From Liolophura sinensis (taxonomy: Eukaryota > Mollusca > Polyplacophora > Chitonida > Chitonidae), in NCBI RefSeq assembly GCF_032854445.1, contig NC_088301.1, positions 25,280,402-25,344,401 on the forward strand: a stretch of DNA of 64,000 nucleotides, written 5' to 3'. The notes below the pieces were generated by a model that was not told where the DNA came from, ran no database searches, and saw only the letters and a list, made by a program, of their open reading frames with translations. The position numbers were made by a program, and so were the translations under genes. Numbering within the stretch: position 1 is the first letter of the stretch; each line of letters starts with the position of its first letter. Shown piece after piece: positions 8,901 to 61,664 of the stretch.

Positions 8901-10993
8901 AAATGCATACTCTTTTCAATGGTATTTGTTTGATATTTAAATTTTCTTCTCCTTTAAGGAGGGCATACAGTATGGTCGAGTAGGTGTTATTGTCTGACCT
9001 AGTTAGGCGCGCGCCATAGACATGGTGTGTTTGGAATAGTTGTTTCGGTGAGGCAAGACGAGGAGTATGTTGAGATGGGCATATAACAAAGGGATGCAAA
9101 CGAGACTTGACAAATATAGCTGAAAGACACGTTTAAAAAGAAACAAAAACGGAAGTACACTTTTCATTGCTTGTACAACGACAATGGGTTAAAACGCCTT
9201 TTGACTGTTTGGAGTTTTTTTTTGATGTTGTGTTCTGCAACGTCCTTTTTCTGCTCATACACGTTACAAAAGAAAAAAGAGGGAAAAAACGGGCATGTCG
9301 CAGTTCAACACGCTACGACATTGTTAATGTATACCTAACGAAGGGCATTTTTTGTACCCGTCTCTTCGCCTATATAAACATATATCATGCGCCGTCGTAT
9401 AAATGAAATATCCATGTATGCACACGACGTAAAACACCACCAAATAAATAACGTTAAAGAAATCATGTCATCAAAATTATGACGCGCAAAAAGTGCATGC
9501 AATTAAACATGATGGTCTGTGGCCTAATGAACGCCTGCCTCGAAGTCGGATCAAACCCGACCCGGGTTTGATCCAAAAGGTTTTTAAAATGGTACTTATT
9601 TCTGCCTCGATAGATGCTCTACACTGAGAGGCTAGAGCAAGGCCCTTTGTCAGTATAATGTGACTGGGTTGGGTGTCATGTCTGGTGTCTTCGGCATGAT
9701 ACTACAGTGGTTGCTGCACTTTGGCGGCATGGATTCGCTCTACCACAAGAAGGCATGGTGTATATACACGGCACACATCTAATTGATTTTCCTGATTGAA
9801 ATAATTGTTAAGTACGACGTTAAACTGCAAGCATTCATACATACATATGCAATTAAACATGCCTTTATCCACATGTTAAGGGGCGATACTCAAACATCCA
9901 TATGCGTTTCAATTTGTTGTCTTCTTCAGGGTTTGGATGCGGCCAATGTTCCAAAGGCACGAGTTTACCCTTTTGGTGGATACAGTCAGAAACTTTCAGA
10001 ATGGCAGGACGTTCATGACTGGAAGGAAGCGGAGAGGTTCGCCCTCAAATCCATCCCTGCCGACATCCCTGTACTGTCGTCTTCAACCATTGACCGGTTT
10101 ATTAAGGACAGCCATTATTCCTCATCCACACCCAGATTTCCAGCCGTATATCTCACAGGTATATTTATGCACAGCCATAGAAACCTTTAACAAAATCAGG
10201 GGCATCCTTGGCGTAGCGTGCTAGCGCAACACAATGACCAAGGAAGCTCTCACCAATGCGACCATTGTGAGTCAAGCTTATGCTGGCTTCGTTTCCCGTC
10301 ATATACGTGGCAAGGTCTGCCAGCAACCTTCACCCACCATAACTCTGGCCGCCGTGACGTAAGTTAAATGTTCCTGAGCATGACGTAAAATTTCTATCAA
10401 ATAAATAAATTTTAAAACATTTATTTGGTTGTGTTTAATGCCCAATTCAAGAATATTCATTGACTTTTACGAAATATGAAGTAAGGAAACCTGGCAGAAT
10501 TCGGGGGAAACCACCAAATCTCGCCATACATGCCGTCCTCCACAAGTCCACTCCAGCTGAAGTCCTCCAGTTTTTTTCAGTAAACTTTCACTTGAAGCAT
10601 GCAGTTTTTGTGGTAGTAAGAATGTGTCAGCATGAATGCTTTTGACTGATGCCTTGAAAGAGATCCTTTTTATCAAAAAAGCAATTAACGCCATGGAATC
10701 TTAAAACCGTCTACATATAATGTTGACATATAGTGCCCTTCTGCGTGATTTTTTGTACAGTTAGATAGGAGTTTGCTAGAACGGGACGATGGGTGAATGT
10801 ACTTCCGATTTCAACTTTCATTAAGATAAAATATCCTCGCAAAGTGAAGAAACAAAAATAGTGTGATAATTGGTGTCATGTCATACGATGATAATAGGCC
10901 TATTATATTAAGAAACGAAACAGTTATACTTATATCAGATCAGATCAGATTACATCAGATCACAAAATAATCAGTGTAATATTGTTTTAATCC

Positions 10994-26100: not shown

Positions 26101-28019
26101 GTTAGTCTGAGGTCTATCAGTTTAGATCGGCTCCCAAGGGCAAGAGGAATGAACAACTGTACGGTACAGATAATACACAGCTTGGACCTTTAGTCAGGAT
26201 AGGTTTCTTATTACTCAAACATAGATCTTCATTGCAAGGGAAACAACCCTATGGATATATCAACACTAAAGAAGACAGCACTAAATAAGTATGTCTGCAC
26301 TGGGACCTCACTGGGACCTCATAGGGATCTCAATGGGACTGATAAAAAATGCATTATATTCAATCATCAGGCATACATTATATGATACATTATGATACTA
26401 TATAAAATATATTTGTCAACACTATTAACACATAGAAATATATCTCGAAAATTACTAACACACTATAGGTCATAGATCTTCAATACTGAGAAACAAGTCC
26501 CGAAACGAAAAGTTAACACCAACTTTGATAGATTTCTTGATTGTTATGGAATGTATGGAGAGTAACGATAAAATGGTATGTATGTGGAAACGTTTTGTTT
26601 CATTTCCTCTTTTAGCACATTAAAGTCGTTGGCTGAATGGTCATAATAAAATAACAGTTTTTCGGACAACGGGGAACAGAGCTAGGTGGGGAAAAAAACG
26701 AAAAAGAAATAAGCCAAATGTAAATTCGACAAAAGAGAAATAAAGAGATATCGTACAGTTTCAGAATTGGTTAATACACCGGGTTTGTATTGATTGGTTT
26801 TCGGGTAATTTATTACAGGTTGTGAGCTGTGTACTCCACATCTGGGCGGCACGTAAACTCGATCACCGATGTAATTTAACACAACATTATCGGTCAGTTA
26901 GAGCGCTCACGTTTAATTTGTGCCAGCGCTGCTTAGAATGAGTCATCAATGCTCGTTGGAAAAGCTGAGAGGGATGTGTTTTTATTTTACATTTTTTTAT
27001 GTATTTTTTTCTTGCCAATTGAAGACAGAGGAGGACAAAGCCACGTTAAGGAAAAGCTTCGGTCTGATCTAAATTGATCTGCAACCAGCAGCAGTATATC
27101 AGGTCGTAGTGACATTTGTAGAGAATGAGTGTTGAAGGTGTCGGTGTATTGACAGCTATACGCATCAACACGTCGACTTGACCGAAACTACAACGGAATG
27201 CATTCGTTCTTAATACATCCTTATTCCGCATCTGAAGAGAAACGAGTGCAGCGGGGTTATGAAGCGCAGGCTCTGATCGTGTCTTTGACATCTTCTTAGG
27301 CTATAAGCTTTCCTGAATGGACGGATGGGATCATTCCGTGCATAAAGGGGTGATTCGATAATCCTGTGAAATTCTTCCTGCACTAATGGATTGGGACCTA
27401 ATATAAATTACGGAATACCAAAACCCTGTAGACGTAAACACCATGTACTTCAATTTGCGTAGCTTGAGTTAAAAAAAAATATACCATTCGGTAGTATAAA
27501 GGCCAAGGAAAAGGAAGAAAAAGTATTACATTCTGAAAAATTTTAAAGTTATAAGCCTAACAGCCAGAAAAATGTTCTTAGGCAGAAAATCTAATGTATA
27601 TCTATAGCTGATTTCCTGACAAGGATGTTCTAGTAGTGCTGATGAGGCGTTTCAATCACGAAGGATATAACTAGATACTAATTAGATTTGTCTATATTTA
27701 TATATTTCATAACTGAAATATTTGGCGTGTATGTGTTCATATCTTATGCGTGTGTGATTTCTACATTTTAGTAAGGATTGTGATGCACGTTTATGATAAA
27801 ATTAACTTTCCTGAGTAAGCCTTTGATATACTGATATATCTTGTAGTTGTTGAATAATTACAAATTCTTAATTTCGTAACGATCGAGTCTCTAAATACTT
27901 CTTGCAATCACCTTTTTACAAATATGTCTATCCGATAGGACAGATTGAATATCAAGTGCATTATCGAAAAATGGTGTTTTTTTAGCTAAATATATATGTA
28001 TGTGTGTATGTATGTATAC
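26101..28019. other. Intergenic, nothing recognised
   Basis: AT-rich. The 81-codon frame at 27046-27291 (-) has no motif and no splice context I trust. Confidence 0.4.
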
Positions 28020-28230
28020 TTGGGGTTTCACGTTGTACTTAATACGTTTCCAGCCATATGAGGACTAGGCGTCACTGAATGTGTGTACATACACTGTGTC
28101 TTCTTGAGGCAAGGCGAATCCATGCCGCTAACGTTCTGCCGCCTCTGAAGTATCATGCCAAAGACATGACACCCCATCTAGTCACATTATACTCATATCG
28201 GGTCGACCAGACCTGTCTCCTTGCTCCAAG
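28020..28230 (-). repeat. SINE family B copy
   Basis: Reverse-oriented. Read on the minus strand it shows 'GAGTATAATGTGACTAGAT', 'GGTGTCATGTCTTTGGCATG', 'GCGGCATGGATTCGCC' and the ending 'TTAAGTACAACGTGAAACCC', matching 9545-9850 block for block. Confidence 0.82.
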
Positions 28231-47500: not shown

Positions 47501-50500
47501 AGCTGGATTCAAACACTTGTCTCCAGTGATGAAGTCTGTATGAAGGAGTGAGTGAGTGAGTGCTTGGAGTTTAACGTCGTACATAACAATTTTTCAGTCA
47601 TATGACAACGCAGGAATCCTCAGAGTGCATGTAATGCGCATGTAAAGTTGCATTACGGATTTCCACCGCTCTTTTATCTAGTGCTGCTTCACTGAGACGG
47701 CTTACCGGAGGCAAATAAGCCGCGCCGCCCGAGCCATTATACTGATACGGGTCAACCAGTCATTGCACTATCCCCTTCATGCTGAACGAAGTCTCAGGAC
47801 TTAACCCAGGATCGAACCTGGATCTGCCGCTCCCGAAGCGAGCGCTTGACCAGTCTGTATGAAACAACCCATTAGACTACTTGGCCAGCCACAAAATGTG
47901 CATAGCAGGGGAGTAAGGAGCAGCCACATTAAAGTTATTTAGGCCACCCTAAAAAAAATTCATTGTTGCCCACATCACTCTCTCATTATCATGGAGAGAG
48001 AAAAAAAAAAGCCTTCTCTCAAAATCCAATAAAACCTTCACAGCCGCACCCTTTTTTTAAAAGAGGTTCAGGTTAGGCTCAATAAGTATAGTTTTAATGA
48101 TTTTTTTTTTATACTCATCCTCAAGTCTGTGTCAATGAATAACAAATACATGTACGGTTTATAAATACATGTACCAGTATTTCAGTTCAACTCACACTGT
48201 TAGTTCACAATTCTGTATTATATCTTCACATATGTACTTACCCCAGCCAATGCCGTATCCGGGCTCTTGGAGAGAACTGTGTAGCCTTTCCGCCAAACCT
48301 TTTCAGTTTTGGATTACCACATTCCCTGGGGGGAAAAATGAACAATTCTCACCCATCTGGCCCTTGGTACAGAATGATAACTGACAGAGGAAATCTAATA
48401 AACAGCTGTAGTGTTTGTGATTATATTATATGTCTGCTGATATTGTCATAACTGATAAGGTGCATGAAATGTGAGTGTAAAACAACAACTACTTTGACAA
48501 AGAGTTGGCAGCTCAGTTCCATCTATTATGGAAATAAAAACACAAAAGCTTACCACTCAACTTTAAACGCAATAGACCACTGATGAGATCAAATCTGCAC
48601 TTTATAGGCTATGTGCTGATGAGTAATTTTTTACGTGTCCTTCTTCATTTTCCCCCTTTATCTTACAACAAACATTTCACAATGAAGCAAATATAACATA
48701 CAGGTATACCAATTAGCCATACAGAGCACCCTTTCAAAAGTGTCCAAACTTAGAATGTCAAAACTGTAAGACTGTGTTTAATACACTGTACAGATTTTTG
48801 TTTTGAAATCAAACTGTTGATTATCTCACATATCCAAGCAATATGAAATTTTTTTACAGATGTTCGAAAACAAAACAAAAAGTAGTTTTAATGGTGTCAG
48901 AGTTGGCAAAGTGTATGAACCTAAAAGTGTATTTGGAAATTATGATTAACAACTGTCATTGGTGCATTCAGTGTAACCCATGTAATGTCATAATACAGCA
49001 TCAATCCTCTCTAGATTTGTACTCCCAATAAGATGATTTTTTTTTTTTTTTTTTTTTTTTGATTGGTGTTTTACGCCTTACTCAAGAATATTTCACTTAT
49101 ACTACGGCAGCCAGCATTATGGTGGGTGGAAACTGAGCAGAGCCCGAGGGAAACCCACGACCATCTGCAGGTTGCTAGCAGACCTTCCCACGTACGGCCT
49201 GAGAGGAAGCCAGCATGAGCTGGTCTTGAACTCACAGTGACCACATTGGTGAGAGGTTTCTGGGTCACTATGCTGCGCTAGCGTGCTAACCGACTGAGCC
49301 ACGGAGGCCCCCCAATAACATGAGCAGAAGTCAGCAATATTATTTGTTTCTTACCTGGCATGGAGAGCCTCCCACTTAAGAACTTCTTCCCAGGCCTGTT
49401 CATTGTTCGCATTATGAATCCTGATAATGGCATCCATATTTTCTGGTTTGACATCATCTTCTTTCCATCGCCAACCTGGAGGGTAGATAAAAAGCAAAAA
49501 ACTGTGAGGCACAAAAGAATCTACACTTCACTTTGACATGCCATTGTCTCTAAAACGGTAAATATGAATATAGTGCCAGCTTATACATGTGCTCTATCGG
49601 TTTGAGTTAAGCAAGTAGAATATATAGTACAGCCTACTACAGGCCTTGACACTGACATGCTGCTCAAAATTTAACTTGAAGCCAGAACGCAAAGCATATC
49701 ATATAAACTACGTGTGGAGACTAAAACAGATCTATTACATATTTTCCACAAAATTATATATTGTGCACATTAAAAAAGGGCTTTTGTTTAAATAACACTA
49801 CAAAAACCACTCTTAATAATAATAATATAATAAAATAATTTTAAAAAATTAATGATTTTTTTTCCTGACAAGAATATTGACTTTTGACACAGTAACTGAT
49901 CTGTTTAAATACCCCTCACCCCCCCCAAAAACAACAATCTCTCCACACACTTTGTGAAAAAAACATTAGAAGCTCTAAAACTAAGAGTTCTAAAATTCAA
50001 TGAAGTAAAAATCCAGAAACCTCACAAGTGAAAAATCCGGACACTTCACAACAAAAAGGCACCAATACATTTTGGAAAGGCAGATAATGGCAGGCAATCA
50101 GCATTAAAGTACTAAATCATCGTTGAAGGGATTGTCAAGATCAAACTGTCTGAAATTCGTTACAAGAAATAAATTTCAAATGCCTTTTATAGCCCAGAAA
50201 AAATCATAACAGTAAATTGCTTGATACTTTGAGTGGCATCATTTTCTATTTTCCCTTTTCTTACCAAGCTGACAACAGGTAGAAGTTTAGAAACCTGATG
50301 TGTCTCACATTCCTGAAGTTAACCAAGTTTCCTGCTGATTTCCTTCCAGTATTAGGGTAAATACATGTACCACTGCTATCCAGCCTCTGACAGGAAACTA
50401 AAACTCTAATGTGTAAAGCTGTTAAACCATGTACCACAAAAAAGTACTTGTTTGACATGAAAATAAACTATGAAACCTTTTGGATCAAGCCTAAATAATT

Positions 50501-58400: not shown

Positions 58401-60445
58401 AATGCAGTTCAACAGATGATTGGTCAACTTGGGACTTGGAAGTACAGAATTCAAGCTCTAGTACCTATTGCAGTACACAGTAAAAAACAAATGGACAATG
58501 AACACTTTGAAGCTTAATTTTTTTTTTTGATTGGTGTTTTACGCCGTACTCAAGAATATTTCACTTATACGACGGCGGCCAGCATTATGGTGGGTGGAAA
58601 CTGGGTAGAGCCCGGGGAAACCCACGACCATCCGCAGGTTGCTAGCAGACCTTCCCACTTACGGCCGGAGAGGAAGCCAGCATGAGCTGGACTTGAACTC
58701 ACAGCGACTGCATTGGTGAGAGGCTCCTGGGTCATTATGCTGCACTAGCATGCTAACCGACTGAGCCACGGAGGCCCCTTGAAGCTTAATAGTTAAGATC
58801 TTAAATTCCATTGAATGTGCAACTTTCAACATTTTTTTATGGATTTGCGATGGTATTAAGTGAAAGAAGGTCGACTCAATCATTGCCAGCATCCAACAGA
58901 TGATCGTGGATTAATCTTGGGCTATGCTCAGTTTCTGCCCACAGTAATGCTGTCCGCCATTATATTATTGAAATCTTCTGTGTAAAACACCAATAAAATA
59001 GATACACAAACATGCATGTGTGTAAGAAGTTAACATGCCTTCGCCAACTATAACCTATTTCTTTCAGAGTCGCCTGTATTCAGCTGTCTGTAAAATCAGT
59101 CCTGTTCGCTCCCAAAATTGCCCTCAGCCAGTGACATGTAACAACCCAAGCTCTACACATTGACATGTTGAACGTCCATATTATTACAAGGAAAATGCAG
59201 TTAGAATACTTTTTCTAATTCATAATGTTAAACTCCATAAGCTTAGTTTTGACACCAAGAACTAAAGGCCTAGGACGACGTCATAATATTTGAAACATTA
59301 CGTTAACATTGTGAATTGGAAAAAAAGTGTTCTCACTTCATTTTCCTAGCAATAATATAGACTTCCAACACATCCATGCGTAGAGCTTGTGTTATGTGTC
59401 AATGACTAAGGGCAATTTTTGTAGTGAGTATGACTGATTTTACAGACAGCTGTACTGCAATCCATACATAGTCAGTGAAAAATTCCATGAAGTTATCATT
59501 GCATAAAGTGAGGAACACGTCCATTAAAGCAGTGCATGGTTCCCTGTTTCAGATGTTTCCCACCTGGTGGACACCTGCCCTCATCTGAAGGAGATTGACC
59601 TGAGTGACGCCACTGCCCTCACCTGTAACGCCTTACACCACATAGCCAACAACCTGCATGGTCTGGAGTACGTCGCCCTCAGCAGATGTTACCATATCAT
59701 GCCAGCCTCATTACCGTAAGAATCACTCTTGCCTTCCAATCTGCTGCCTATTAACCTGCCGATCAAAATATATATGCCAAGTTTAAAATTCCAATTTTTA
59801 TTTCAAAGTTAGCTGATTTCATCCTTCAAAATCTTTTTTTTTTTTTTTTTTACATGATACTCAGTGGCAGATTTAGATACAGTGTATTTTTCACCTACTG
59901 TCATTTTCAGTTTAATGAGATTAATGCTTGATTTTTTTCATAAACTACACTGACAGATCATCTGTTAAAATATCTAACATCAAAATTTTGCAAAAGTTTT
60001 GTTTTAGCATCTAATGTCATAAAGTTTTTATAGATTATGAATATTATAAATGTAAAAAAGATGCTTAGGTTTGTATCATTTAACCACAAGTGAATTACCT
60101 CTATCAGCGTTCACTAAGAATGTTCATTTGTTGTCTGATCTTGACTTTTTTCAGGGTGTTCTAATGACTCCTCTTTGTCATGACTGAAAAATTGTTAAGT
60201 ATGACATTAAACCCCAAGCTTTCATTCATTCATTCATTCATTCTTCCAGGGTGTTAACTAAGATTGTCACTCTCCTTGCTGTGGATATGTTTGGAATGCT
60301 ACGTGAAGCTCCCCTCCAACAGCTGCGAGAAAGCATGCCTAGGATTGAGATCAACAAGTTCCCCTTCTCTAGCATAGCTCGCCCCACCACCGGGATACGA
60401 CGTACCAGCCTGTGGGGAATGCGGGTCCGAGACACCAATGTTTAG
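52464..60445 (+). CDS. SKP2: S-phase kinase-associated protein 2 (F-box/LRR receptor of SCF)
   Basis: Substrate receptor of the SCF E3 ubiquitin ligase, best known for targeting p27/Kip1 together with Cks1 in G1/S control. Eleven coding exons: 52464-52534, 53929-54142, 54999-55164, 55656-55764, 56183-56297, 56712-56767, 57100-57234, 57737-57835, 58249-58376, 59553-59715, 60250-60445. All introns are GT-AG and phases join without a shift into 483 residues (424 in human). Residues 1-150 are a poorly conserved, charged N-terminus with a bipartite basic stretch ('SRKRAAE ... SRKTRMK'). The F-box is at ~151-200 ('FGRLSDEMILNVFRWLPKFV', 'VCKRWSSLVLDESLWKRIDL'). LRRs occupy ~225-420 ('VQYLDLSMADIS', 'LETLNLCMCQGIS', 'LESINLAWTSLS', 'LKEIDLSDATALT', 'LEYVALSRCYHIMP'). 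The C-terminal tail 'IARPTTGIRRTSLWGMRV' matches the SKP2 tail. The last 3' splice site has been remodelled by a SINE. Confidence 0.95.
52535..53928 (+). other. SKP2 intron 1
   Basis: GTATTC donor, TTTTTAG acceptor. Contains a foldback pair: TAATACTAAAGTTTAGGGTG (52909-52928) and its inverted match ending CTTTACTACTTAAT (to 53060), suggesting a ~150-bp MITE. No coding sequence is seen. Confidence 0.6.
54279..54525 (+). repeat. SINE with a distinct tRNA head and A-type 3' end, SKP2 intron 2
   Basis: The head reads GGACTCAGTGGCCCAGATGG and GGTCGCGTGTTCAGATCTAG (A- and B-box positions). The 3' end reads TTTTCTCCACCCATAAATCT, GACCATCATC and AACACCAATCAAATAAT, the diverged tail of family A. The element probably shares only its 3' domain with family A. 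Confidence 0.65.
58519..58778 (-). repeat. SINE family A, full-length, perfect target-site duplication, SKP2 intron 9
   Basis: Complete reverse copy, from poly-T (58519-58528) through all domains to the head GCCTCCGTGGCTCAGTCGG on the minus strand. Flanked by identical TTGAAGCTTAAT (58507-58518 and 58779-58790). The perfect duplication and near-consensus sequence indicate a young insertion. Confidence 0.95.
58901..59003 (+). repeat. SINE family A, 3' fragment, SKP2 intron 9
   Basis: GATCGTGG ... CCCACAGTAATGCTGTCCGC ... TGTAAAACACCAATAAAAT in family order, 5' truncated and diverged. Confidence 0.7.
60152..60255 (+). repeat. SINE family B 3' fragment inserted at the last SKP2 splice acceptor
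   Basis: Between two copies of CAGGGTGTT (60152-60160 and 60247-60255) lies a short segment with the family B ending 'AAATTGTTAAGTATGACATT' + 'AAACCCCAAGC' and a (TTCA)n tail. The duplicated nine bases include the intron-end CAG and the first six exon bases, so the insertion created two acceptors. The (TTCA)n tail now supplies the pyrimidine-rich tract before the functional acceptor at 60249/60250. Confidence 0.82.
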
Positions 60446-60891
60446 CGTTGCCACTAACAAAGATAGTTTACTCAGTTTACTCTTGGCAGCTTAGAACCAC
60501 TTCACAAAAGCATTTCATTTTTTTGTTGTTGTTGTTGATGATACCTCTTATGGCATTGTAACTTATATTGCCCGGTCAGTGCCGCTTTGTATGTTTGTAT
60601 GACAGTCAAGGAATGCTAGTTAATGTATGATGGACAACAATGTTGACATGAATGTGTTTTTGGCATGGTGCATGAAGGCTACGTACAATTACTTTAGTAT
60701 TGTCTTGACATGACACTTTTGCTCCTTGGTTATGCAATTTGGACGACATAACATGTTGATATACATTCGATAATTAATGAAGTTGAGCTATGTAAAATGT
60801 ATGATACTTCTCAAAGATTTGTCACACTATATTTTTCCTTGAGGTTTACTCTGTATTTTCATATTTTCATTGTAACATTTCACTTAACGCT

Positions 60892-61113
60892 TGGTCCTCC
60901 GTGGCCAAGGGGGTTAGCACGCCAGCATGGCACAATGAGCCAGGAGCCCTGCACCAATGTGAGTTCAAGTCCAGTTCATCTTGGCTTTCTCTCAGGCCGT
61001 AAGTGGGAAGGCCTGTCAGTAACCAGCGGATGGTTGCAGGTTTTCCCGGGGCTCTGCTCAGTTTCCTCCCACCATAATGCTGGCCGCTGTCGTATAAGTG
61101 AAACATTTTTGAG
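60892..61113 (+). repeat. SINE family A, near full length, in the SKP2 3' region
   Basis: Head GGTCCTCCGTGGCCAAGG, body and 3' domain to GTATAAGTGAAACATTTTTG. It is missing the interval CTCTCACCAATGCGGTCGC and the terminal tail. Confidence 0.9.
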
Positions 61114-61664
61114 ATTATTCCTCAGTTTGGAAGGTTGGACATTATCATAGTTCAAGTTTAGTCAATTCACTTTCTAGACGTTTTCCATTTTCGTTTCAAA
61201 ATTACATTGCACATAGAAGCCTGATCATGCACTTTTAAACCGTGTTGTTATCAGCTCTGAATTTGCAGTTTACTTTAATTTTGTTTGATTTACTTTGTCT
61301 TTTTAGTTATTTTTTTGTCATGAATTACTCAGGGTTGACTGTAAAGTAGATGTATTCTTGTTTCCTCAATTATTGCAATTCATGATGACTTGTTTTGTCT
61401 TCAATTATGAGAAGTCCTATCTATTTTTGAATGAAATTTGTTCTTAGTCACTATATTGATGTGTAAAACTCAAGTCATTTTGATACATAACTTGCATGAT
61501 CATTTCTCCTCACTTCATTTTGCAGAGAATAAATCTCTGTTGTTGTTAAGGCATGTATTGTTGATGGCATCATTCCATGTTCCAGTTACAATTGTGATCT
61601 CAACTATTTATAAAGTTTAATGTACCTAATTATTGTAAAATCAATAACTTGATGACACTGAAAG

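Follow-up and report, generated by a model that had tools for sequence, protein, structure and literature searches.

The last coding exon of SKP2 in the chiton Liolophura sinensis carries two copies of its own 3' splice site, separated by the end of a SINE. Insertion of this SINE appears to have duplicated the acceptor, and the exon would now very probably be spliced after the downstream AG, with signals supplied by the tail of the element. A first-pass annotation of the window (the whole 64-kb stretch of DNA analysed here) had proposed such a copying of the acceptor by target-site duplication, and the evidence below bears that proposal out. The Liolophura assembly was first published under the species name japonica (PMC11068029), which has been corrected to L. 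sinensis (PMC12441733).

The penultimate SKP2 coding exon occupies positions 59553..59715 of the + strand, as judged from its translation and homology to SKP2, with the donor GT at 59716. When the exon translations were joined through the downstream acceptor, SKP2 chains were the top matches in the PDB (e.g. 1fqv_A, E = 2.2e-47), whereas the best match to any other protein in the same search, F-box/LRR-repeat protein 2, had an E-value of 2.6e-22; the SKP2 chains are presumably human. The predicted protein has the F-box, the leucine-rich repeats and a C-terminal tail best matching SKP2 that are expected of an SKP2 orthologue, in agreement with the earlier naming of the gene. Joining 59553-59715 to 60250 gives ...MPASL-P-V-L-T-K-I-V... 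and a last coding exon, recognized by translation and homology, at 60250..60445 (+ strand), which is open for the junction codon and 64 further codons up to the TAG at 60443-60445. The alignment with SKP2 crosses the junction without a gap (...aslP-VLTKIV... against ...etlL-ELGEIP...) and reaches residue 302 of 305, so that the C-terminus, ...IARPTTGIRRTSLWGMRVRD, is intact and alignable nearly to its end.

Joining the same exon to 60155 yields P-V-F-stop upon translation, with a TAA at 60162..60164 (+ strand). Thus, only the downstream acceptor continues the SKP2 tail and the upstream one is truncating, just as the first-pass annotation had stated, except that 63 rather than about 62 residues would be lost. 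Its further suggestion of an NMD switch is not supported: the premature stop lies within the last coding exon and begins at the eighth base past the last known junction, so exon-junction-dependent decay is not expected, barring an unseen intron in the 3'UTR. A search of the same genome with the last two exons returned both SKP2 exons and one weak extra match (E = 0.11); neither a second SKP2 copy nor an empty site was found in this assembly, which has gaps.

The two acceptors lie within exact copies of the 9-mer CAGGGTGTT, which the + strand of the window contains only at 60152..60160 and 60247..60255, with one occurrence on the - strand; random expectation is ∼ 0.24 per strand. The junction between intron and last exon falls inside this 9-mer, which includes the AG, at 60153-60154 in the upstream (original) copy and at 60248-60249 in the downstream copy, behind which SKP2 continues. 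The two copies border the intervening 86 bp (60161..60246, + strand) exactly, nine bases of nine on both sides, and this insert matches copies dispersed in the genome. From the flanks, the original acceptor would have read TTTTTTCAG/GGTGTTAACTAAG (slashes mark splice junctions).

Dispersed copies were sought in 632 contigs (609,464,459 bases) of the same genome, and 40 of 2195 first-look candidates were scored, comprising the window itself and 39 other copies. For 37 of these 39, the first matching query base lies between 59 and 64, base 62 being window position 60161; for the remaining two it is 68 and 80. Of the 39, 35 copies reach at least ∼ 80 bases further 5' than the SKP2 copy, and the other four (L012, L019, L032 and L036) extend no further or hardly any further. 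In a family consensus of 371 positions built from 38 copies, the SKP2 insert corresponds to 295-371. Since the matches start at the border of the upstream repeat and most copies extend further 5', the insert is, on this comparison, a 5'-truncated SINE 3' end in sense orientation, as had been claimed, and the flanking 9-mers are its target-site duplication. The consensus match of L019 (G000:C6:78326416-78326999) also starts at 295; the shared start could be due either to chance or to a common short form of the element.

The 39 other copies make up a dispersed family with a common 3' end and a simple-repeat tail, (CATT)n. By eye, the head of the consensus is tRNA-like; this head is absent from the truncated SKP2 copy, and Rfam searches with three family copies each (L029, L033 and L013; L029, L033 and L015) returned no match. 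A clear duplication of ∼ 9-15 bp was seen at both borders in eight of the 22 copies with a placeable 5' end (L009, L015, L016, L017, L022, L027, L028 and L038), and the nine-bp duplication in SKP2 fits this range. In the other 14 it was shorter, displaced or unrecognisable, which counts against the insertion account. By eye, the 5' flanks of the copies tested for duplications gave no sign that the SINE prefers pyrimidine-rich targets.

The window holds three more copies of the SINE end, with 73-82% identity, at 47540-47618 (-), 9787-9846 (+) and 27996-28057 (-). A second repeat lies at 58565-58744 (-) and 60752-61150 (+), with frames MTQEPLTNAVAVSS... and MSQEPCTNVSSS..., both of which include GFLSGRKWEGL; MTQEPLTNAVAVSS recurs past the tail in the 3' flank of L028. 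Elsewhere in the genome, flanks match within two pairs of copies, L023 and L041 (G000:C12), separated by about 85 kb, and L078 and L079 (G000:C3), separated by about 29 kb; such pairs are a sign of segmental duplication and not of independent insertion.

With respect to splice signals, pyrimidines make up 82% of positions -20 to -4 of the acceptor built from the tail and 76% of those of the old acceptor, which keeps TTTTTTCAG/G. Since the seven other SKP2 acceptors range from 65 to 82%, both sites are plausible as acceptors, and the tail-built one is joint highest of the nine compared. The (TTCA)n tail (60221..60246, + strand) occupies the position of the polypyrimidine tract, as the annotation had noted, and its yUnAy/TTCAT motifs provide potential branch-point adenines at -25, -21 and -17 relative to the new acceptor; the nearest AG upstream is at -32. 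By general splicing principles, the old AG would be the first to be met from a branch point located 5' of the SINE. Because that AG is the first one after the native signals, full-length SKP2 most simply requires a branch point inside the SINE, and the branch-point and pyrimidine signals of the downstream AG most likely lie within the SINE tail.

The following course of events would account for these features. Target-primed reverse transcription would have placed a 5'-truncated, sense-oriented SINE transcript at the junction between the SKP2 intron and last exon, just after CAGGGTGTT. As the 9-bp duplication spanned the junction, the AG would have been copied together with the first six exon bases, and the last exon would now start behind the downstream AG, its signals lying in the SINE tail. 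The old acceptor would stay as a competing site, use of which would shorten SKP2.

The insertion does not appear to be recent. By eye, the SKP2 copy differs from the family consensus by four substitutions and by a deletion of two bases over ∼ 64 non-tail bases and, because three of the four substitutions fall at variable consensus positions, its divergence can be put at about 1.6-6%. With the heterozygosity of about 1.24% given in the published description of the Liolophura genome (PMC11068029), this corresponds to ∼ 2.6 to 10 mean coalescence times, from which we infer that the insertion is probably fixed. In simulations at 3-8% divergence, the frame of the last exon stayed open under neutrality with P = 0.67-0.85 for substitutions only and 0.13-0.47 when indels were included, and the upstream 9-mer was unchanged by chance with P = 0.47-0.76. 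At such divergence neither outcome proves selection: the open exon is weak evidence when taken alone, and the unchanged upstream 9-mer is uninformative on retained function.

As regards the present role of the upstream acceptor, it is probably a mostly inactive relic, with the tail acceptor taking nearly all of the splicing and any leakage to the old site amounting to noise. The intact full-length frame and the pyrimidine-rich tail acceptor with its three branch-like motifs argue for this reading; against it, the old site comes first in the transcript and has kept its native upstream signals. Retention of TTTTTTCAG/G and of a 76% pyrimidine tract at the old acceptor speaks for another reading, in which both acceptors are used and the insertion has created a regulated, truncated SKP2 without the C-terminal domain. 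Such a form would loosely resemble human Skp2B, which differs in its C-terminal domain, localises to the cytoplasm and fails to regulate p27 (PMC3035582). We consider this dual use unlikely, as chance alone would leave the old site unchanged in about half of cases or more and the truncated form would have a plain stop after a single new residue. Decay of the gene, with the old acceptor in use and SKP2 truncated in this lineage, is very improbable: the old acceptor is intact and an open frame alone is compatible with neutrality, but the search of the genome gave no second SKP2 copy and the C-terminus remains intact and alignable. Finally, a chance 9-bp match at a SINE that merely lies beside an ordinary acceptor can be practically dismissed, since, although short repeats arise randomly and 14 of the 22 family copies have no clear duplication, the match is exact at two fixed borders (4^-9) and the + strand of the window has no further copy of the 9-mer.

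The account of a tail-built SKP2 acceptor is supported by two other genes in which acceptors of ancient exons lie directly behind the same tail. The sample consisted of 132 other copies, namely 38 of the 39 best matches (L041 was excluded because it is nearly identical to L023) and, from 100 listed places with an exact SINE 21-mer, the 94 that did not already belong to the first set; the copies are partly non-independent, the flanks of L078 and L079 being identical as far as shown. Without regard to an acceptor, the 21-mer has 186 exact copies. A straight run of the tail into a coding acceptor of an ancient gene was confirmed in two of the 132 copies, L015 (KSR) and L054 (SCM).

L015 is a full-length SINE inserted into the pyrimidine tract at a KSR acceptor (G000:C10:5884249-5884833, minus strand). 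Its tail runs into TTTTTCCTCAG/C-ACG-GTG-TGG and the KSR exon (G)TVWYELLTGEWPF, which matched KSR in the PDB (E = 2.4e-16); Pfam returned nothing for the L015 flank. The element is bordered by TTTTCTTCCTC and TTTTTTTCCTC, a target-site duplication identical in 10 of 11 bases. Upstream, in the same orientation, is an exon reading SEQSDVYAFG with the donor GG/GTGAGT, which by eye is the preceding kinase exon. This copy came from a query that extended past the tail; it is also among the matches listed with the element alone as the query. In L054 (the L054/L106 locus, G000:C1:27799662-27800400, minus strand), the tail runs into TTGTTCTGTCACAG/GAG of the SCM exon encoding the SAM domain (PDB Sex comb on midleg, E = 1.3e-14; Pfam SAM_1). 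The SINE spans consensus positions 36-371, is flanked by TTCTGTC (by eye) and has just upstream of it the remnant of an older SINE copy (311-368). Apparently, the SCM acceptor has been hit twice by the same SINE, the older copy having once preceded it.

The duplications in KSR and SCM cover the pyrimidine tract and not the AG, which leaves a single AG behind the SINE tail and places the native tract an element's length upstream. These two cases add plausibility, beyond that from SKP2 alone, to the use of splice signals from the SINE, and they suggest that a sense-oriented tail can restore the acceptor that it disrupts.

There was no general excess of acceptors behind the tail. An offset control on the 132 copies looked for YAG leading into an open frame of 30 codons or more: 32 copies had one next to the tail, or 23 with equal room, against 29 with one at 55-90 nt beyond it. 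Thirteen of the 132 copies (12 of 98, plus L127) also passed a pyrimidine filter; two of these are L015 and L054, and the other 11 are unconfirmed candidates. Eight of them (L010, L019, L021, L051, L062, L068, L073 and L077) gave no acceptable database match, L051 having a sub-threshold match to DUF7402 only; the other three candidates are L028, L053 and L127. L018 likewise had no acceptable match, nor did two open frames taken from flanks that do not belong to the 13. A strict pattern, the SINE end with YYYYYNCAG within 26 nt, had zero matches, against the 186 exact copies of the 21-mer, and would miss SCM as well. By chance, ∼ 0.3 of 132 random insertions would end sense-strand within 15 nt of an acceptor, given an assumed 200,000 introns and a distance window chosen afterwards, and the two confirmed cases against this expectation are suggestive only. 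The filtered copy L077 (L077/L107, G000:C2:25596400-25597107) is a ∼ 30-base tail-only remnant (consensus 341-371) that ends in CATTCCAG/GATCTG; behind this candidate acceptor is a 45-codon open frame with a stop, possibly a last exon, for which there was no database match.

We would put forward only tentatively the wider possibility that the chiton SINE acts as a portable 3' splice-site module that rebuilds acceptors, with repeated capture in SKP2, KSR and SCM and a decoy where the AG itself is duplicated. An insertion at a splice acceptor is expected to be harmful; a tail that replaces the missing signals would account for its survival. If the possibility holds, a sense (TTCAT)n tail, with its yUnAy motifs and pyrimidine-rich tract, mends a broken acceptor; the captured exons depend on transposon-derived splice signals, that of SCM apparently twice in succession; and use of the decoy acceptor may vary with tail length. 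The three genes would then offer a natural series for the choice of branch point and AG, the AG having been duplicated in SKP2 and the pyrimidine tract in KSR and SCM, and a possible way for core regulatory genes to become dependent on transposon sequence.

Of the known systems, the merle SINE in PMEL of the dog, as described (PMC7349775), is a clear precedent: a 15 bp target-site duplication holds the splice acceptor and, as in chiton SKP2, the SINE sits at an intron/exon boundary, its tail serves as the polypyrimidine tract and two acceptors are possible. The merle SINE is tRNA-derived, and the head of the chiton family looks tRNA-like by eye. However, the merle element is in reverse orientation, its poly(A) providing a poly(T) tract, and has a cryptic acceptor in the SINE body (PMC7349775), whereas the chiton element is in sense orientation (+ strand), 5'-truncated and probably fixed, and has a duplicate of the native site as its second acceptor. 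Introners also derive splice sites from target-site duplications, but create new introns (PMC9860276); we rejected an introner reading, as the SKP2 element occupies the 3' part of an existing intron (from 59716) that was only lengthened there, with no intron gained. In the SVA insertion in GAA in Pompe disease, the element's CCCTCT repeat forms the polypyrimidine tract of an acceptor, as the chiton tail would, although that SVA is exonised (PMC8509548), whereas the chiton SINE is predicted to be intronic, with the native exon kept. Human Skp2B (PMC3035582) shares with the predicted short chiton form an altered C-terminal end, which in Skp2B comes from a different exon and in the chiton would be a plain truncation. 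Among the open-licence papers listed for duplicated acceptors, in part as titles and abstract openings, none described a SINE whose sense-strand tail rebuilds a native acceptor. The first-pass description of the SKP2 SINE as a rare clear case is therefore apt as to clarity and less so as to rarity, given the merle precedent and the two further acceptors directly behind the tail among 132 copies: it is a true, clean example of a known phenomenon in a variant form.
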